Below are positions 7,525 to 16,508 of a stretch of 64,000 nucleotides of DNA, in pieces. Position 1 is the first letter of the stretch; every line of letters begins with the position of its first letter. The DNA lies in assembly GCA_943788165.1 (NCBI GenBank), contig CALSPF010000003.1, positions 1-64,000 on the forward strand, written 5' to 3'. A program made the translations under genes and the position numbers. This DNA comes from an uncultured Flavobacteriaceae bacterium (GTDB taxonomy: Bacteria > Bacteroidota > Bacteroidia > Flavobacteriales > Flavobacteriaceae). Below the pieces are notes generated by a model that saw only the letters and a program-made list of their open reading frames with translations, did no database searches and was not told the DNA's origin.

Positions 7525-7619
7525 AGGGCAAAGATAATGTTTTAAAAAAGTAAAAAAAGGGTACAGATGGGGATAGAATTTGGTTAACTGAATAATTTGA
7601 CGCATTTTTGTACAGTATT

Positions 7620-7691
7620 ATGAAAACAATAACCAATATACCGTTTGTTTCTTTCCGCTTCCCGCGCATTCGTCGCCCCTTGGGGGTCTAA
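7620..7691 (+). CDS. Candidate arginine-rich leader peptide upstream of the arginine operon
   Basis: A 23-codon reading frame (ATG 7620, TAA 7689-7691) begins MKTITNIPFV and contains FRFPRIRR: four Arg codons (CGC, CGC, CGT, CGC) within seven positions. It lies 80 nt before the first gene of an arginine biosynthetic operon. This is the layout of a ribosome-mediated attenuator: starvation for charged tRNA-Arg would stall the ribosome at 7656-7676. Downstream, a 6-bp inverted repeat (TGGAAT 7700-7705 / ATTCCA 7719-7724) and a T-rich tract to about 7753 could form a weak terminator, but the hairpin is not convincing by eye. Translation and control are inference. Confidence 0.55.
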   Translation: MKTITNIPFVSFRFPRIRRPLGV

Positions 7692-7771
7692 TACTATTAT
7701 GGAATTTAGGTGTGTCCGATTCCACTCTCAAACCATCTTTCTTTATCTTTTTATAACTAAAACCATTTCTC

Positions 7772-8359
7772 ATGGAAATTGTTAACGCGGGACCTGAACA
7801 TATACATTTTGCAAAAACCATTAGCCAAACCATAGAGGAATCGGCAAAAGACCGAGGTACGGGTATTGCACAACGCTCTCCAGCCTACATTATCGAAAAA
7901 ATGCAAAACGGCAATGCTGTTATCGCCTTTGAGGAAAGTACCTTTGCGGGCTTCTGTTATATCGAAGTGTGGGGGCACGGCAAATATGTTGCCCATTCTG
8001 GACTGATAGTATCCCCTACTTTCCGCGGTCAAGGTCTAGCTAAACGTATTAAGAAACGTGTCTTTGATCTTTCACTCAAGAAATTCCCAGGGGCAAAAAT
8101 ATTTGGCATTACCACAGGCCAAGCCGTCATGAAAATAAATTATGAACTCGGCTATAAGCCCGTTCACTTCTCCGAGCTAACAGATGATCCAGAGTTTTGG
8201 AAGGGCTGTCAGACCTGTAAAAACTTTGATGTGCTTACCCGAACAGAACGCAAACTTTGTTTGTGCACAGGAATGCTACACGATCCCAACGAGAAAAAAC
8301 AAACCGAATCTAAAACAACCACTTTTTTGAGTGGCCTCTTTAAAAAGAAAACAAAATGA
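7772..8359 (+). CDS. GNAT acyltransferase, probable N-acylglutamate synthase of the arginine pathway
   Basis: 195 residues with a GNAT fold: the acyl-CoA pyrophosphate loop is SPTFRGQGLAKRI (about residues 74-86). The C-terminus has a CQTC...CLC cysteine cluster that could bind a metal. As the first gene of the arginine operon it most likely acylates glutamate (acetyl- or succinyl-CoA donor), the step otherwise done by ArgA or ArgJ, neither of which is in the operon. The role rests on position and fold, not on close similarity to E. coli ArgA. It overlaps argG by 4 nt. The last ~20 residues are lysine-rich and low in complexity. Confidence 0.75.
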   Translation: MEIVNAGPEHIHFAKTISQTIEESAKDRGTGIAQRSPAYIIEKMQNGNAVIAFEESTFAGFCYIEVWGHGKYVAHSGLIVSPTFRGQGLAKRIKKRVFDLSLKKFPGAKIFGITTGQAVMKINYELGYKPVHFSELTDDPEFWKGCQTCKNFDVLTRTERKLCLCTGMLHDPNEKKQTESKTTTFLSGLFKKKTK

Positions 8360-9546
8360 AAAAATTAGTTCTAGCATATAGCGGTGGTTTAGACACCTCC
8401 TACTGCCTCAAAACACTATCTCAAGAGGGCTATGAAGTACATGCTGTGAGTGTCAATACGGGCGGATTCTCTGCACGAGAAATTAAGGCACAGGAAGAAA
8501 AAGCCTACGCTATGGGGGCTACCACCTACAAATCCATCGATGCCTTGCAAACCTTTTATGCAAAAATCGTCAAGTATTTGATCTTTGGAAATGTTTTAAA
8601 AAACAACACCTATCCGCTTTCGGTTAGTGCAGAACGCATTGTACAAGCCATTGAAATTATTGAATACGCTAAAAGTATCGAGGGAAAATACATCGCCCAC
8701 GGAAGTACGGGTGCAGGAAACGACCAAGTGCGGTTTGACTTAATATTTCAAGTTCTTGCCCCAGAAATTGAAATTATTACGCCCATACGTGATCAACAAC
8801 TATCACGGGAAGCAGAAATTGATTACCTCAAAGAACAAGGCATTGAACTTTCTTGGGAAAAAGCGCAATACTCCATCAACCAAGGTCTATGGGGTACTAG
8901 TGTTGGAGGAAGTGAAACCTTAACCTCACATCAAACACTGCCCGAAACAGCCTACCCAAGCCAGCTAACAGCAACTACCCCTAAAAAAGTTATTCTAAGC
9001 TTTGAAAAAGGGGAATTGATTGGGTTGAATGGTGCCCAAGGTAGCCCTTTAGAACTGATTCAATCACTGCAAGAAATCGCAAAAGAATACGCCATTGGAA
9101 GAGACATCCATGTAGGGGACACTATCATTGGGATCAAAGGTCGGGTTGGCTTTGAGGCTGCAGCACCACTGCTCATTATTAAGGCACACCATTTGTTGGA
9201 AAAACATACCCAAACAAAATGGCAACAGCACCAAAAAGAACAGTTGGCTAATTTTTATGGTATGCAATTGCATGAAGGAAATTATCTGGATGCCGTAATG
9301 CGCGACATAGAAAGCTTCCTAGAAAGCAGCCAAAAAACCGTTAATGGTGATGTCTATATTACCCTTCACCCCTATCGATTTGAGTTGGAAGGGGTATCCT
9401 CTCCCAATGACCTTATGAATGCTTCTTTTGGCAGTTATGGCGAAATGAACAAGGGCTGGACAGCCGACGATGCAAAAGGCTTTATCAAGATATCAGCCAA
9501 TGCTCATAAGATTTACGGAAGTGTAAACAACTCATCAAAGAAATGA
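8356..9546 (+). CDS. argG: Argininosuccinate synthase
   Basis: Condenses citrulline and aspartate with ATP to argininosuccinate. 396 residues, normal for the family. The PP-loop AYSGGLDTSYCL is at residues 7-18, and the aspartate/citrulline-binding stretch HGSTGAGNDQVRFD is near 115-128. Start ATG overlaps the GNAT gene by 4 nt and its stop overlaps argC by 4 nt, so translation is probably coupled across all three. Intact, no oddities. Confidence 0.96.
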   Translation: MKKLVLAYSGGLDTSYCLKTLSQEGYEVHAVSVNTGGFSAREIKAQEEKAYAMGATTYKSIDALQTFYAKIVKYLIFGNVLKNNTYPLSVSAERIVQAIEIIEYAKSIEGKYIAHGSTGAGNDQVRFDLIFQVLAPEIEIITPIRDQQLSREAEIDYLKEQGIELSWEKAQYSINQGLWGTSVGGSETLTSHQTLPETAYPSQLTATTPKKVILSFEKGELIGLNGAQGSPLELIQSLQEIAKEYAIGRDIHVGDTIIGIKGRVGFEAAAPLLIIKAHHLLEKHTQTKWQQHQKEQLANFYGMQLHEGNYLDAVMRDIESFLESSQKTVNGDVYITLHPYRFELEGVSSPNDLMNASFGSYGEMNKGWTADDAKGFIKISANAHKIYGSVNNSSKK

Positions 9547-10517
9547 AAACAGTAGGAATAATAGGAGGTTCTGGTTACACCGGAGGAGAACTCATTCGTT
9601 TGGTCATAAATCATCCCGCATTAGAACTTAACTTTGTGTACAGTACCACTCGTCCTGGTACAGCCATAAGCGACACACACCACGATCTTTTGGGAAGCTT
9701 AGATCTAAGCTTCACAGATAAAGTCAACGCAGAAGTAGACGTACTTTTTCTTTGTTTAGGACATGGGAATTCAAGTGCTTTTTTAGAAAAGCATCACTTT
9801 TCAGAGACAACCATCGTCATCGATCTAAGCAACGATTTTCGTTTAAAGGCAGATGCGCACTTTGGCGGTAGAGAATTTGTATACGGTTTACCCGAAACAA
9901 ACAAAGCAGCCATTGAAAAAGCCACGGCAATTGCAAATCCTGGCTGTTTTGCTACGGCCATTCAACTGGCTCTTTTACCCTTGGCAAAGGCAAAAAAACT
10001 AACCGAGACCGTGCATATTAATGCTACTACAGGAAGTACTGGCGCTGGGGTAAGCTTATCACCAACGACTCATTTTACTTGGAGAAACAACAATCTCTCT
10101 TGGTACAAACCCTTTACACATCAGCATTTAGGGGAAATTGGCGAAAGCTTAGCCGAATTGCAAGGCAACGATACTGCTATGTTATTCTTACCACAAAGGG
10201 GAGATTTCACCCGTGGGATTTTTGCCTCGGCCTATACCGAATTCGATGGCTCAATAGACGAGGCCTACGATCTGTATACTAATTTCTACAAGAATGCCCC
10301 CTCCACACAGGTATCAAAAAAAGAGGTGAATCTTAAATTGGTCGTCAATACCAATCAGTGTTTTTTGCATTTGCACAAACACGGGGATGTTTTACTAATT
10401 ACCTCAGTCATCGACAACCTCATCAAAGGCGCCTCAGGACAGGCGATACAAAACCTCAACCTCATCATGGGTTGGGAAGAGACCTTGGGTCTACAACTTA
10501 AAGCAAGTATTTTTTAA
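9543..10517 (+). CDS. argC: N-acyl-gamma-glutamyl-phosphate reductase
   Basis: NADPH-dependent reduction of N-acylglutamyl phosphate to the semialdehyde, third step of arginine synthesis. 324 residues: N-terminal Rossmann motif GIIGGSGYTGGEL (5-17), active-site cysteine in ANPGCFATAI (about 138-147), and the C-terminal domain with HQHLGEIGE. Overlaps argG by 4 nt and is followed 8 nt later by proC. Whether the acyl group is acetyl or succinyl cannot be read from this enzyme. Confidence 0.95.
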   Translation: MKTVGIIGGSGYTGGELIRLVINHPALELNFVYSTTRPGTAISDTHHDLLGSLDLSFTDKVNAEVDVLFLCLGHGNSSAFLEKHHFSETTIVIDLSNDFRLKADAHFGGREFVYGLPETNKAAIEKATAIANPGCFATAIQLALLPLAKAKKLTETVHINATTGSTGAGVSLSPTTHFTWRNNNLSWYKPFTHQHLGEIGESLAELQGNDTAMLFLPQRGDFTRGIFASAYTEFDGSIDEAYDLYTNFYKNAPSTQVSKKEVNLKLVVNTNQCFLHLHKHGDVLLITSVIDNLIKGASGQAIQNLNLIMGWEETLGLQLKASIF

Positions 10518-10525
10518 TAAGACAT

Positions 10526-11320
10526 ATGAAAATAGCCATCATTGGAACCGGAAATTTAGGCCTAAGCATTGCCAAAGGCTTGGTAATCAATAACGCCATT
10601 ACCACCCTTCATCTCACAAAACGCAATCCCGATTCTCTAAGCGATTGGAACAAAACCAAAAATGTAACGGTTACTTCCGACAACAAAGAAGCCGTTAAGC
10701 AGGCAGATATTCTCATTTTTGCGGTACAACCTAGTCAATTCGAGGGAATTTTAGCAGAAATAAAAGACATACTTACCGAGAAGCATGTCATTATTTCGAC
10801 CATAACAGGATTTAAAATCAGTCGAATTGAAGCAATTCTTGGCGCAGATTTTCCAATCATTCGAAGCATGCCCAATACGGCTATCTCCGTTGGAAAATCC
10901 ATGACCTGTTTGTGTTCGAATAGTGTTGGTGAAAAACGAATTGCCATAGCATCTGCCATTTTCAATGGTTTGGGGACCTCAATTATTATTGAGGAAGAAC
11001 ACATGCAGGCAGCAACAGTTATTTGTGCAAGCGGAATTGCCTTTTGGATGCGACTCATTCGTGCTACTACCCAAGGGGGTGTTCAATTGGGCTTTGATGC
11101 TAAAGAGGCCATGATGATGTCGATGCATACTGCCCTTGGTGCAGCATCGCTGTTGATCGAAACCGATACCCACCCTGAACAAGAAATCGATAAAGTAACT
11201 ACCCCAAGAGGGTGTACGATTACCGGTCTAAACGAAATGGAACACCAAGGACTCAGCTCGTCGGTCATCCAAGGCCTAGTAGCTTCTTTTGAAAAAATCA
11301 ACGAAATCTCCACCCAATAA
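10526..11320 (+). CDS. proC: Pyrroline-5-carboxylate reductase
   Basis: Reduces pyrroline-5-carboxylate to proline with NAD(P)H. 264 residues with N-terminal dinucleotide motif IGTGNLGLSIAKGL (6-19), the RSMPNTA(I) substrate block (about 115), and a C-terminal dimerisation region ending in the family's TTPRGCTITGLNEME signature. It is a proline-pathway enzyme placed inside an arginine operon. Glutamate semialdehyde derived from ornithine gives the same substrate, so the grouping links proline output to arginine/ornithine flux. Confidence 0.93.
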   Translation: MKIAIIGTGNLGLSIAKGLVINNAITTLHLTKRNPDSLSDWNKTKNVTVTSDNKEAVKQADILIFAVQPSQFEGILAEIKDILTEKHVIISTITGFKISRIEAILGADFPIIRSMPNTAISVGKSMTCLCSNSVGEKRIAIASAIFNGLGTSIIIEEEHMQAATVICASGIAFWMRLIRATTQGGVQLGFDAKEAMMMSMHTALGAASLLIETDTHPEQEIDKVTTPRGCTITGLNEMEHQGLSSSVIQGLVASFEKINEISTQ

Positions 11321-11321
11321 G

Positions 11322-12461
11322 ATGAAATTATTTGATGTATACCCTTTATATGATGTCACCCCAGTGCGGGCGAAAGATGTCTATATATATGATGAAAACG
11401 GTACGGAATACCTCGATTTATACGGAGGGCACGCTGTAATTTCTATCGGCCATGGTCATCCGCGCTATTTGGAACGTTTGACCCAGCAAATGCATCAAAT
11501 TGGTTTTTATTCCAATGCCATACACAACCCACTGCAACACGAATTGGCCAATGCCATAGGAGAACATTCATGCTGTCATGACTATCAATTATTCTTGTGT
11601 AGTTCTGGTGCAGAGGCCAATGAAAATGCCTTAAAGCTCGCCTCTTTTCACACAGACAAGGCCCGAATCATTGCCTTTGATCATGCCTTTCATGGGAGAA
11701 CAAGTGCCGCCGTAGCCGCCACAGATAATCCAAGTATTAATGCTCCACTCAATCAACAACAAAAGGTGACCTTTCTTCCTTTTAATGATGAAAAGACCTT
11801 GGAAAATGAATTAAAAAAAGGAGATGTTTGCGCCGTTATTTTCGAAGCCATTCAAGGTGTAGGTGGACTAGATGAACCTTCAGAAGCATTTGTTTATGCC
11901 ATGGAGCGTTTGTGTAATGAATATTCAGTCTGTTTAATTGCTGACGAAGTACAAGCTGGTTTTGGACGTACTGGAAACTTTTTTGCCTATCAAAAATACC
12001 GCATTGAACCACACATCATTTGTATGGCCAAAGGCATGGGAAATGGTTTTCCCATCGGCGGAATATTAGTACATCCTTCCATTGGAGCTAAATATGGAAT
12101 GCTAGGAACCACTTTTGGTGGAAATCACCTCGCCTGCGCAGCCTCCCTAGCAGTGTTAGATGTCCTCAAAGAAGAAAATCTACAGGCACATGCTAAGGAC
12201 CTAGGAGAATATTTTATGCAAAAAGCAAAAGAAATTGATGGTGTGCGAATCATCAAAGGCCGAGGGCTTATGCTTGGACTTGAATTTGACTTTGAAGTAG
12301 GCCCCTTACGTAAAGAATTGATTTACAACCACCATATATTTACTGGTGGCAGCAGTAATAAAAAACTACTTCGCATTTTACCACCACTAACGGTGCAACA
12401 AAAACACATTGATTTCTTTTTTACACAACTCGAAATCGCATTGAAAACCATTGCAGCATGA
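11322..12461 (+). CDS. argD: Acylornithine aminotransferase (class III, PLP)
   Basis: Transaminates N-acylglutamate semialdehyde to N-acylornithine. Family blocks visible: GGHAVISIGHGHP near residue 28, CSSGAEANENALKLA (PLP phosphate site), DEVQAGFGRTG, and the Schiff-base lysine in CMAKGMGNGFPIGG. The frame is open upstream to 11289, but ATG 11322 (MKLFDVYPLYDV) is 1 nt after the proC stop and gives the normal length of 379 residues, so it is the likely start. It ends overlapping the transcarbamylase gene by 4 nt. Confidence 0.94.
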   Translation: MKLFDVYPLYDVTPVRAKDVYIYDENGTEYLDLYGGHAVISIGHGHPRYLERLTQQMHQIGFYSNAIHNPLQHELANAIGEHSCCHDYQLFLCSSGAEANENALKLASFHTDKARIIAFDHAFHGRTSAAVAATDNPSINAPLNQQQKVTFLPFNDEKTLENELKKGDVCAVIFEAIQGVGGLDEPSEAFVYAMERLCNEYSVCLIADEVQAGFGRTGNFFAYQKYRIEPHIICMAKGMGNGFPIGGILVHPSIGAKYGMLGTTFGGNHLACAASLAVLDVLKEENLQAHAKDLGEYFMQKAKEIDGVRIIKGRGLMLGLEFDFEVGPLRKELIYNHHIFTGGSSNKKLLRILPPLTVQQKHIDFFFTQLEIALKTIAA

Positions 12462-13405
12462 AGCACTTTATCTCCTTAAACGACCTTCCAAATTTTGAGC
12501 AAACCCTCGCTCTGGCAAAACAGTTGAAAGCGAATCCATATGCGCATGAAACTGCCGGTAAACGTAAAACCTTGGGCTTACTCTTTTTTAACCCTAGTCT
12601 ACGTACACGGTTAAGCACACAAAAAGCTGCCCAAAATTTAGGTTTCAATACCATAGTAATGAACTTTTCAAACGAAGCCTGGGCTTTGGAATTTGAAGAT
12701 GGCACAGAAATGCGCGGCATTCGTTCGGAACACGTACGGGAAGCTGCCGCGGTGGTCTCTCAGTATTGCGATATGGTAGCCATTCGTGCTTTCGCCAGTC
12801 TAAACAATAAAGAACAAGACGAAGCAGAAATTGTATTGAATAGCTTTGCCAAATACGCTTCCATCCCTGTAATCAATATGGAAAGTGCTACTGGACATCC
12901 ACTGCAATCTCTTGCAGATGCCCTAACCCTAGAGGAGCATGCAACTCCTCATCGTCCAAAAGTAGTGCTTAGCTGGGCACCTCACCCCAAGGCATTACCG
13001 CATGCCGTGGGAAATTCTTTTACCCAGATGATGCAATTACGTGATGCAGACTATGTGATAGCTAACCCTGAGGGCTATGAACTTGATCCTAAAATCACCA
13101 AAAACATTCCCATTGTACACAATCAAGAAGAAGCCCTTGCAGGAGCTGATTTTATTTACGCCAAAAATTGGTGTTCCTACAGTCAGTATGGAGAAGTCTT
13201 GCGTACCGATGCAGAATGGATGCTTACGCTTGAAAAAATGGCATTGACCAATAATGCAAAATTTATGCATTGTTTACCCATTCGACGAAACATTGTCGCC
13301 GCAGATGTTGTTTTAGACGGACCCAACTCTCTCGTCATTGAACAAGCCAATAACCGAACCTTTGCTGCACAAGCGGTACTCAAAACATTGCTCGATCATG
13401 CCTAA
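12458..13405 (+). CDS. argF': N-acylornithine carbamoyltransferase (ArgF'; N-succinyl- or N-acetyl-)
   Basis: Carbamoylates the acylated ornithine, giving N-acylcitrulline; this replaces the usual ornithine carbamoyltransferase. 315 residues. The carbamoyl-phosphate loop is FNPSLRTRLS (44-53), followed by MESATGHPLQSLADALT and FMHCLPIRRN. It resembles the Xanthomonas AOTCase/Bacteroides SOTCase branch rather than ArgF. At the position that sets acyl preference in those enzymes (Glu92 in Xanthomonas, Pro90 in B. fragilis) this protein appears to have Ser90 (MRGIRSEH), which argues against strict acetyl preference. That alignment was made by eye. Confidence 0.9.
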   Translation: MKHFISLNDLPNFEQTLALAKQLKANPYAHETAGKRKTLGLLFFNPSLRTRLSTQKAAQNLGFNTIVMNFSNEAWALEFEDGTEMRGIRSEHVREAAAVVSQYCDMVAIRAFASLNNKEQDEAEIVLNSFAKYASIPVINMESATGHPLQSLADALTLEEHATPHRPKVVLSWAPHPKALPHAVGNSFTQMMQLRDADYVIANPEGYELDPKITKNIPIVHNQEEALAGADFIYAKNWCSYSQYGEVLRTDAEWMLTLEKMALTNNAKFMHCLPIRRNIVAADVVLDGPNSLVIEQANNRTFAAQAVLKTLLDHA

Positions 13406-14174
13406 ACTATCCATTGTAAAAATAGGCGGAGCTGTCATTGAAGATCCCACTAAATTGGCTTCCTTTTTAGCTGATTTTGCTGCCCTTGAAGGACATAAGG
13501 TTTTAGTCCATGGTGGCGGAAAAAAAGCCAGCCTTTGGGCAGAAAAACTGGGCATTCCTGTACAAATGAAAGATGGCCGTCGTGTAACCGATGCGGACAC
13601 GCTTGAACTCATCACGGGAATATACGGCGGACAACTCAACAAATACATTGTTGCCCTCCTTCAAGGCATGGGCTGCAATGCGCTTGGATTGTCAGGAGCC
13701 GACGGAAATGCCATACAAGCCATTAAACGCCCCGTTAAAGCCATTGATTATGGCTTTGTTGGCGATGTCTCTCAAGTAAACACTGCCTTGTTCAGCAATT
13801 TAATTGAACAAAACATTATCCCTGTTTGCTGTGCCATTACCCATGACGGTAAAGGACAATTATTCAATACCAATGCCGATACCATCGCCGCAGAAATTGG
13901 AAAAGCCATGGCAGCTCACTATGATACGGTTCTTTACTATTGTTTTGAACTCCCTGGTGTGATGAAAGAACTTAGCGATCCTGACTCACTGATTAAACAT
14001 ATTACCGAAGAAAGTTATACCAACCTATTGGTAAACAATGTTATTTCAGCCGGAATGCTTCCAAAACTCTACAATGCCTTTGACGCCCTGAAGGGTGGTC
14101 TGCAAGAAGTGGGCATTGGTTCAACTAAAATGATTTGCAATAACACCCCCTACACATCAATCACACTCAAATGA
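13398..14174 (+). CDS. argB: Acylglutamate kinase
   Basis: Phosphorylates N-acylglutamate, the second step and the usual feedback point of the pathway. 258 residues. N-terminal KIGGAVIEDP and the VHGGGKKASL glycine loop bind ATP, GRRVTDADT and NTNADTIAAEIGKAMAA are the substrate and C-terminal blocks. An upstream ATG at 13338 is in frame, but it would overlap argF' by 68 nt. ATG 13398 (MPKLSIVKIGG) gives the family-typical N-terminus and an 8-nt overlap. No N-terminal arginine-sensing helix is visible, so feedback inhibition by arginine is uncertain. Confidence 0.93.
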   Translation: MPKLSIVKIGGAVIEDPTKLASFLADFAALEGHKVLVHGGGKKASLWAEKLGIPVQMKDGRRVTDADTLELITGIYGGQLNKYIVALLQGMGCNALGLSGADGNAIQAIKRPVKAIDYGFVGDVSQVNTALFSNLIEQNIIPVCCAITHDGKGQLFNTNADTIAAEIGKAMAAHYDTVLYYCFELPGVMKELSDPDSLIKHITEESYTNLLVNNVISAGMLPKLYNAFDALKGGLQEVGIGSTKMICNNTPYTSITLK

Positions 14175-15226
14175 AAACCCTAACAGAAAAAGCCATCGTC
14201 TTATTGCATGATCTCATTACCATTCAATCTTTTTCGAGTGAAGAAGACCCTACGGCGGTGCGCATAGAACAATGGTTTACTGAACACAATATACCTTCAA
14301 AGCGTCAGGACAACAATGTTTATGCCTTTAACGCAGCTTTTGATGCCAATAAACCGACCCTCTTACTGAATTCCCACCACGATACAGTACGACCCAATTC
14401 TGCCTACACCAAAGATCCGTTTCATCCACATATAGAAGACGGAAAACTTTATGGTCTAGGGAGCAATGATGCGGGAGGAGCCTTGGTCTCCCTGATGGCG
14501 TTTTTTACACACTACTACGATCATCCCAACCCAAAATACAACCTCATTATCGCTGCAACGGCTGAGGAGGAAAGCTCGGGTCCCTTAGGCCTGAATAGTC
14601 TGCTTAAAACCCTACCACCCATTGACGTTGCCATTGTGGGGGAACCCACCCTCATGCAATTGGCCATCGCCGAAAAAGGCTTGGTGGTTTTTGATGGAAA
14701 AGTGAAGGGAACTGCAAGTCATTCAGCTCATCCAAACGCAGATAATCCCCTATTGAAATTACCAGCGGTAATTGAATGGCTTAGCCATTTTACCTTTGAA
14801 AAAGAATCCGAAGTACTCGGTCCCGTAAAATTAACCCTAACACAGCTCAATGCAGGGAAACAACACAATGTTGTTCCAGCGCAGGTAGATTTAGTTATCG
14901 ATGTTCGGGTGAATGATTGTTACAGCAATCAGGAAATTGTTGCACTCTTGCAAAAAGAGGCACCACTTGAATTGACACCGCGCTCGATTGATTTAAACTC
15001 CTCTTCCATCCCAGAAGAACACCCATTGGTGCAAGCGGGTATTGCACTGGGAAGAGAAACCTATGGTTCTCCAACCCTTTCCGACCAAGCAAAACTCTCT
15101 TGTCCTTCCCTAAAATTAGGACCCGGAGATTCCACGCGCTCACACACAGCAGATGAATTTATCTATGTGAATGAAATCGAAGAAGGAATCGCGTTGTATA
15201 TTGCTCTTTTAAATAAAATTCTATAG
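14171..15226 (+). CDS. argE: M20-family N-acylcitrulline/acylornithine deacylase
   Basis: A zinc peptidase-fold hydrolase that removes the acyl group late in the pathway; with the ArgF' route the substrate should be N-acylcitrulline rather than N-acylornithine. 351 residues. Metal and catalytic residues are visible: SHHDTV (first His), GSNDAGGALVS (bridging Asp), AEEESSGPLG (catalytic Glu pair) and SHTADEF near the C-terminus (last His). The inserted dimerisation domain starts about residue 170. Overlaps argB by 4 nt and precedes argH by 1 nt. Confidence 0.9.
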   Translation: MKTLTEKAIVLLHDLITIQSFSSEEDPTAVRIEQWFTEHNIPSKRQDNNVYAFNAAFDANKPTLLLNSHHDTVRPNSAYTKDPFHPHIEDGKLYGLGSNDAGGALVSLMAFFTHYYDHPNPKYNLIIAATAEEESSGPLGLNSLLKTLPPIDVAIVGEPTLMQLAIAEKGLVVFDGKVKGTASHSAHPNADNPLLKLPAVIEWLSHFTFEKESEVLGPVKLTLTQLNAGKQHNVVPAQVDLVIDVRVNDCYSNQEIVALLQKEAPLELTPRSIDLNSSSIPEEHPLVQAGIALGRETYGSPTLSDQAKLSCPSLKLGPGDSTRSHTADEFIYVNEIEEGIALYIALLNKIL

Positions 15227-15227
15227 T

Positions 15228-16508
15228 ATGAAACTTTGGCAAAAAGGGGCCGCAGCCCACGAGAAAGTAGATGCATTCACTGTTGGTAAAGACCGCGAAT
15301 ACGATTTGGTTTTAGCGCAATACGATTGTGAAGCCTCTATGGCTCATGCTAGGATGCTAGGGAAAATAGGATTGATTTCAGCCAATGAGGCAGAACAACT
15401 CTGTGCTGTTTTATCCCGATTGAAAATTGCCGCTGCAGCAGGGGATTTCACCATAGAAGATGAATTTGAAGACATGCACTCCAAAATAGAACATATCCTA
15501 ACTGCAGAATTGGGTGATTTAGGGAAAAAAATACATACAGCACGATCGCGAAATGATCAGGTTTTGGTGGCCATGCACCTCTACCTTAAGCAAGCCCTAA
15601 AGGAAGTGAAAGCGGATGTGGTTTCCTTGTTCGACTTACTCCTTGAACTTGCCGAAAAACACCAAAAGGATTTATTACCCGGCTACACCCATTTACAGGT
15701 AGCCATGCCCTCTTCTATTGGGATGTGGTTGTCTGCCTATGCAGAAAGCTTAATCGATGATCTCTACTTTTGGGAAGCAGCCTACAAAATGGCCGATCAG
15801 AATCCGTTGGGAAGTGCCGCCGGCTATGGGAGTTCTTTCCCCATAGATCGTGAATTAACCACCAAGTTATTGCAGTTTGACCAACTAAAAGTAAATGCTG
15901 TGGCTGCGCAAATGAGCCGAGGGAAATTAGAAAAAAGTACGGCTACTGCTCTTTCCTCCATCGGGAGTAGTTTGGCTAAACTGAGCATGGACATTTGTTT
16001 GTACATGGGTCAGGATTTTGATTTCATTTCCTTCCCAGCAGATCTTACCACTGGTTCCAGTATCATGCCCCACAAAAAGAATCCCGATCTCTATGAATTG
16101 GTCAGAGGAAAATGCAATGGCCTACAAGGTCTTCCTAACCAACTAGCCCTCTTAACCACCAACCTACCCAGTGGTTATCACCGTGAGTTACAATTGGCCA
16201 AAGGGCCCATCATTGAAGCGGTACAAGAACTAAAAGCCTGTTTGGAAATTCTCTTATTTAGTTTGCCCAAATTGAAGGTACGTAAGAACATTACCGATCA
16301 GAAAAAATACGACTACCTCTTTAGTGTGGACACCCTCAATGCAGAAGTGCTAGCAGGAAAACCCTTCCGCGATGCCTACCGCGAACTAGGGGAAGCCATT
16401 GAAGCAGGGAATTTTACCCCCAACAGAGCGGTAGAACATACCCATTTGGGCAGTATTGGAAATCTTGGTTTAGCAGAAATCCGTGCGAAAATGGAGAAAC
16501 TGCGCTAA
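15228..16508 (+). CDS. argH: Argininosuccinate lyase
   Basis: Cleaves argininosuccinate to arginine and fumarate; last gene and last step of the operon. 426 residues, slightly shorter than the common ~460. Fumarase/aspartase-superfamily blocks are intact: TARSRNDQV (about 104-112), the catalytic HLQVAMPSS region and the GSSIMPHKKNPD signature near 278-289. No obvious terminator follows within the 100 bp before the next gene. Confidence 0.95.
   Translation: MKLWQKGAAAHEKVDAFTVGKDREYDLVLAQYDCEASMAHARMLGKIGLISANEAEQLCAVLSRLKIAAAAGDFTIEDEFEDMHSKIEHILTAELGDLGKKIHTARSRNDQVLVAMHLYLKQALKEVKADVVSLFDLLLELAEKHQKDLLPGYTHLQVAMPSSIGMWLSAYAESLIDDLYFWEAAYKMADQNPLGSAAGYGSSFPIDRELTTKLLQFDQLKVNAVAAQMSRGKLEKSTATALSSIGSSLAKLSMDICLYMGQDFDFISFPADLTTGSSIMPHKKNPDLYELVRGKCNGLQGLPNQLALLTTNLPSGYHRELQLAKGPIIEAVQELKACLEILLFSLPKLKVRKNITDQKKYDYLFSVDTLNAEVLAGKPFRDAYRELGEAIEAGNFTPNRAVEHTHLGSIGNLGLAEIRAKMEKLR

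Follow-up and report, generated by a model that had tools for sequence, protein, structure and literature searches.

A conserved arginine-codon leader and a covarying hairpin upstream of the arginine operon of Flavobacteriaceae

Bacterial arginine genes are generally regarded as controlled by the repressor ArgR. In the speF leader of Salmonella, consecutive Arg codons of orf34 sense arginine in a system that has no intrinsic terminator and involves Rho (PMC6386406), and in Staphylococcus aureus the leader peptide rbfL senses arginine limitation and acts by covering the ribosome-binding site of the next gene (PMC13009471). For Flavobacterium psychrophilum, a study of structured 5' regions reports strong indications of attenuation by leader peptides before amino-acid operons, together with 5' elements before pheA and hisG that have no Rfam match; its main text names no arginine operon (PMC9723704). 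The terms searched in PMC2965389 and PMC4833913 gave no mention of arginine, and no arginine leader peptide preceding an arg operon was found reported for Bacteroidetes in the open literature searched. This suggests that, while leader-peptide attenuation and arginine-sensing leader ORFs are already in print, a leader of an arginine operon in Bacteroidetes is new.

The locus analyzed here lies in a stretch of 64,000 nt (the window, positions 1 to 64,000 of contig CALSPF010000003.1, assembly GCA_943788165.1) from an uncultured marine Flavobacteriaceae bacterium. Its relevant features are the following.

7580-7611, plus strand: promoter-like elements of the Bacteroidetes type, TTTG at 7580-7583 and CATTTTTG at 7604-7611, the latter 8 nt before the leader ATG
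7620-7691, plus strand: leader ORF of 23 codons, ATG to TAA, peptide MKTITNIPFVSFRFPRIRRPLGV
7675-7687, plus strand: hairpin hp1 (GCCCC-UUG-GGGGU) of the MFE structure, with its 5' arm within the Arg19-Pro20 codons and the stop codon directly 3' of it
7700-7724, plus strand: hairpin hp2 of the MFE structure, with an outer stem, a 5' bulge, inner GG/CC pairs (7709-7710 with 7716-7717) and the loop UGUGU (7711-7715)
7725-7771, plus strand: stretch poor in G that separates hp2 from the first start codon, a candidate Rho site
7772-8359, plus strand: GNAT-type N-acetyltransferase, first gene of the operon, matching PRK07757 below its cut-off
8356-16508, plus strand: argG, argC, proC, an argD-type aminotransferase, N-acetylornithine carbamoyltransferase, argB, an ArgE/DapE deacylase and argH

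The arginine operon thus comprises nine genes, with the GNAT gene first and argG second, and tilS is divergent from it. The leader resembles speF orf34, as described in PMC6386406, in having Arg codons in a leader ORF and in lacking an intrinsic terminator, but the speF system differs in that ornithine decarboxylase is its target, its leader is long and subject to decay by RNase G, its structure is different, and it belongs to another phylum. Compared with rbfL as described in PMC13009471, the arg leader has hp2 and about 45 nt lying between its ORF and the next gene. Rfam searches (T-box, riboswitches, known leaders, Flavo-1) gave no relevant match in the window region or in 39 related loci.

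Conservation of the arginine-codon leader

The four Arg codons of the leader ORF start at 7656, 7665, 7671 and 7674 (codons 13, 16, 18 and 19), and the end of its stop codon is separated by 80 nt from the ATG at 7772. A density of at least four Arg within seven codons was found in 6 of the 1017 ATG ORFs of 10-40 codons in the window, the leader ORF included, and mononucleotide shuffles of the region 7560-7771 yielded an ORF of such density in 9 of 5000 cases. The short Arg-rich frame pointed out in the preliminary description, with 23 codons and four Arg in seven at 80 nt before the operon, was confirmed. Its Arg density by itself is unusual and not decisive; conservation is decisive.

Conservation was analyzed in a set of 199 genomes of the family, nearly all of them from a different genus each. 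The GNAT gene was present in 130 of these genomes, and the upstream regions of all 130 were taken. The motif GGTGNGTCC appeared within 500 nt upstream of GNAT at 112/130 loci and its relaxed form, GRTGNGBYC, at 119/130, the hp2 pattern being missing at 11/130. At the 119 loci with the pattern, the leader counted was the most Arg-rich ORF with a stop codon at most 50 nt before it. Conservation of the Arg codons in relatives, whose absence the preliminary description had named beforehand as refuting it, was clear: 114 of the 119 leaders carried at least three Arg and 98 at least four. Under the identical procedure, full shuffles gave at least three Arg in 11% of cases (265/2380) and at least four in 4%, shuffling of the nearest 63 nt alone gave 12% and 4.5%, and shifting the procedure 200 nt further upstream gave 11/114 and 5/114, respectively. 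An alternative way of breaking ties still left at least three Arg in 111/119 leaders, and a rule independent of hp2 found a leader at 120/130 family loci. A chance Arg-rich ORF without function, to which the 6/1017 short ATG ORFs of matching density in the window would lend some room, is refuted by this conservation against three controls and is hardly credible.

The commonest C-terminus of the family leaders is RRRP or PRRP directly at the stop codon, while the leader in the window is of the RRPLGV type, with its stop three codons further on. Such conservation of Arg-Arg-Pro at the C-terminal end, or close to it, is what would be expected if, at high arginine, the nascent RRRP peptide stalled the ribosome at the Pro or stop codon, in the manner of TnaC or of the arginine attenuator peptide of fungi. 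However, leader lengths range from 8 to 48 residues, the N-terminal parts are highly variable, and the position of the stop varies as well. Arrest peptides are not known to be so variable in their N-terminal parts and lengths, and we consider arginine-induced arrest quite unlikely.

A scan of genome contigs of relatives, of which the best 80 of 428 were kept, returned Flavobacteriaceae, many of them marine MAGs, under names that include Candidatus Arcticimaribacter, Maribacter, Allomuricauda and Flagellimonas. Cultured relatives with a leader include Maribacter thermophilus and Pricia antarctica. Among these best 80 of 428, the hp2 pattern was present in 70, and 66 of these 70 had a leader with at least three Arg; two of the 70 (L251 and L266) have too little upstream DNA for a leader. 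The window leader and its six nearest relatives all have 23 codons (7/7), with Arg at positions 13, 16 and 19 in 7/7 and at position 18 in 6/7, and synonymous third-base changes occur at the conserved Arg positions among these seven closest sequences. On the other hand, in the three genomes examined of one genus (g127; L118, L164 and L165) the GNAT gene is kept with no Arg leader or hp2 upstream, which points to a possible loss of both elements there.

Hairpins, spacing and terminators

Across the family, hp1 is formed by the last Arg-Pro codons paired with the bases after them, and its loop often holds the stop codon (CGCCC-GUAA-GGGUG). When the bases after the stop were shuffled, the stability of the native hp1 fell within the best 10% at 68 of 120 family loci (12 expected), and at 11 of 43 loci in other families (4.3 expected). 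In hp2, the 5' bulge mostly ends in A, followed by two inner pairs and a UGNGU loop, which reads TGAGT in 79 of the 119 loci, TGTGT in 27, TGCGT in 9 and otherwise in 4. In an unfitted alignment of 119 of the 130 family loci (alignment A1), 7 of the 8 pairs of hp2 showed two-sided changes. Double-change cells in hp1 and hp2 together numbered 95, whereas shuffling gave 25.9 +/- 4.2 and sliding no more than 34, controls that ignore relatedness; hp1 contributed 2 of the 95 and so covaries little. The whole 161-nt leader region of the window folded no better than shuffles (z -0.11).

Measured from the codon for Pro in the last Arg-Pro, the distance to the GGTG of hp2 is 31 nt with a standard deviation of 1.19 (n = 114 leaders), compared to a standard deviation of 4.75 for the distance from the stop codon to GGTG. 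In the 18 leaders in which the stop does not directly follow Arg-Pro, the first distance spans 28-34 nt and the second 2-28 nt. Because the spacing from Pro to hp2 is fixed while the stop moves, the constraint must hold between hp2 and the Arg-Pro codons (or hp1), and not the stop codon.

These hairpins raise the alternative that RNA structure alone matters, as a protein site or riboswitch, with the Arg-rich ORF as a by-product of a C- and G-rich hp1. That hp2 is the most conserved element and that the hp1 arm is formed by CGN-CCC codons would fit this explanation. Nevertheless, Arg conservation extends upstream of hp1 and, in the form of AGR codons, to other families, the 23-codon length is constant in the closest seven sequences, and at least three Arg are retained in only 12% of cases when the nearest 63 nt are shuffled, against 96% observed. 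We regard an explanation by structure alone as very unlikely.

A second small ORF, encoding MEIGESISA..., begins in the 5' arm of hp2 in some members of the family (L007-L028 and further loci with 'ATGGAAATAGGTGAGTCC'). It is closed by UGA in other family members and is not conserved elsewhere. A Shine-Dalgarno role for the AGGUG of hp2 was also considered and rejected as not general, other families having CCUACGCGG-type hairpins instead.

The his leader of the same family served as a yardstick for terminators. In the 25 of 31 family genomes in which hisG was found, an intrinsic terminator was detected upstream of the gene in every case (25/25; L192-L216), the genome of the window included, and a His-rich ORF precedes hisG in most of the 25 loci. 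Leader attenuation is therefore in use in this family. The his and arg leaders both have a short ORF with cognate codons directly before the operon and hairpins after it. They differ in that the his leader has an intrinsic terminator in 25/25 loci and an antiterminator arm by eye, whereas the arg leader has hp1 over the Arg codons, an hp2 with a conserved loop, and no U run. In the genome of the window (L214; G000:C1, minus strand), a U-run terminator comes after the His leader ORF, recognized by eye as MRKNNTHTHQFTFRSNES; both lie just upstream of hisG (910705-911247).

The same scan found no intrinsic terminator after hp2 in any of the 119 family arg leaders, and a pattern scan found no terminator-like site in the arg leader of the window; hp2 lacks a U tract and was ruled out as an intrinsic terminator. 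Passes were recorded in 22 of the 119 leaders (2.6 in shuffles), all at hp1 plus a T-rich spacer and mostly with weak U tracts. The mean U-tract score was 1.68 after hp1, compared to 1.14 for background and 5.12 for his terminators (22 of 25 scored), the window's own value being 0.84, and only 6 of 113 leaders scored above the 95th percentile of background. No conserved antiterminator pairing was found in the family arg leaders. The CGCC of the hp1 arm is able to pair with the GGUG of hp2 in 116-119 of the 119 leaders per pair, without covariation. Pairing of the freed hp1 arm did not exceed the chimera control, and pairing of the hp1 3' arm with the GNAT start was discarded as about equal in chimeras. 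A pseudoknot of the hp2 loop was likewise discarded, loop complements not being in excess in own versus permuted sequences except in one 4-mer test (offset 1, downstream, 7/300 permutations), one of nine tests with two directions each.

These results bear on a classical attenuator of the trp/his type, in which hp1 or hp2 would be an intrinsic terminator that a stalled ribosome prevents, or in which stalling favors an antiterminator. A ribosome on the Arg codons would directly block hp1, 22 leaders pass the scan there, well above shuffles, and strong U tracts occur in a few (L033, L119). By contrast, the average U tract after hp1 stays far from that of the his leaders, hp2 has no terminator, and termination at hp1 would leave hp2 untranscribed, although hp2 is the best conserved part. 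An attenuator of this classical type is thus improbable. With regard to the preliminary description, which had proposed attenuation by ribosome stalling, the conserved Arg-codon leader, the covarying hairpin and the promoter-like element uphold the idea, but not in its textbook trp/his version with terminator and antiterminator. Similarly, the hairpin it placed at 7700-7724 is present in the MFE structure and covaries, but the T-rich stretch said to follow sits well beyond it.

Distribution of the leader and of ArgR

A covariance model of the region (R1) matched the window at 7656-7727 with an E value of 7.8e-14, and a search of the same genome returned nothing else below E 0.3. Among 296 genomes of the phylum, matches with an E value of 0.01 or lower occurred in 27. 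All 13 strong matches (E below 1e-9) lay within the family and before GNAT-argG, and the model is accordingly family-specific. The weak phylum matches (E 4e-4 or worse), with neither GNAT nor argG nearby, look like chance and were dismissed.

Among 149 genomes of the class, GNAT was present in 58, and 52 loci outside the family were examined, three GNAT places being left out as weak second-type matches. R1 gave 3 weak matches in these 52 loci. An Arg leader was found at 43 of the 52 by a loose rule that admits some chance ORFs, and at 39 with a stop-codon check. Over the last 14 positions of the 43 leaders, the Arg codons were AGG (42), CGA (36), CGC (27), AGA (18), CGT (17) and CGG (9). Because CGN and AGR codons interchange in these families, it is the amino acid that is kept.

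A hairpin with a YNNGY loop was present in 11 of the 39 leaders of other families, whereas shuffles gave 0.4 and six alternative loop patterns gave 0-2. The count of 11 is partly circular, the pattern having been derived beforehand from these leaders and those of the family. The loops seen were UACGC, UACGU, UAUGC, UUCGC, CGAGC, CAUGU and UGCGC, with inner pairs of CC/GG or GC type and not GG/CC. The distance from stop to loop, which forms no part of the YNNGY rule, was 26-28 nt where the stop follows the Arg end and 13-19 nt where the ORF continues past Arg-Pro. By the descriptor used (stop-codon check, one mismatch allowed), 28 of the 39 leaders had no hp2. This descriptor replaced a first one for the class (9/43, 0.6 in shuffles), one of whose nine hits, L181, is a different hairpin.

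ArgR (TIGR01529) was detected in none of the 199 family genomes, that of the window among them, and in 7 of the 149 class genomes. In four of the class genomes (G418, G426, G576 and G604; loci L239, L229, L237 and L241, respectively), argR lies directly upstream of the operon or GNAT, and inspection of these four loci by eye showed no Arg leader of this type; Arg ORFs admitted by the loose rule at L229, L237 and L241 were judged to be chance ORFs. Thus, a family without detected ArgR carries a conserved RNA leader instead, and in the four ArgR-bearing class genomes argR occupies the leader's place.

Proposed mode of action

Bacteroidetes promoters follow a -33/-7 consensus. The sequence CATTTTTG at 7604-7611 has a single-base mismatch to TAnnTTTG, and this element was found at most 60 nt upstream in 26 of 80 family ATG leaders, compared to 115 of 2786 control windows (4.1%), ending mostly 7 nt before the leader ATG. 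Judging from these promoter-like elements, the transcript would begin just before the short ORF, almost at its ATG. Downstream, G makes up 5.9% of the sequence between hp2 and the start codon over the family, and the last 45 nt before the start contain 6.3% G in arg leaders versus 13.4% before hisG. Such a G-poor stretch would suit Rho but proves nothing.

Ribosome-mediated attenuation is favored because the Arg leader is conserved, hp2 covaries, the spacing is fixed, the single copy is tied to the operon, and the family has no detected ArgR. On this sequence evidence, the ribosome very probably senses arginine supply at the Arg codons of the leader, which would be an attenuator acting in cis. 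When charged tRNA-Arg is scarce, a ribosome translating the leader would slow on the Arg codons and cover hp1, whose 5' arm consists of those same codons, at a constant distance upstream of hp2. With ample arginine, the ribosome would run off, hp1 would close, the tandem of hp1 and hp2 would form, and expression of the operon would fall. We infer that the output is a non-intrinsic premature arrest of transcription, through Rho on the G-poor stretch or through a factor bound to hp2. Leader-peptide control would in this way extend to the synthesis of arginine by Bacteroidetes, its output being other than the textbook terminator.

A more specific reading, which we hold tentatively and consider doubtful, is that hp2, with its conserved bulge and YNNGY pentaloop, is read against the position of the ribosome and recognized by a trans-acting factor that decides whether RNA polymerase continues, without an intrinsic terminator or antiterminator. 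By analogy with boxB, this factor might possibly even be the Arg-rich leader peptide itself. If such a reading were true, a large part of the class would use this design instead of ArgR. Being compact, covarying and absent from Rfam, hp2 is a hairpin whose partner can be sought.

Among the genes of the operon is also proC, for proline synthesis, at positions 10526-11320 of the window, which would come under the same control.
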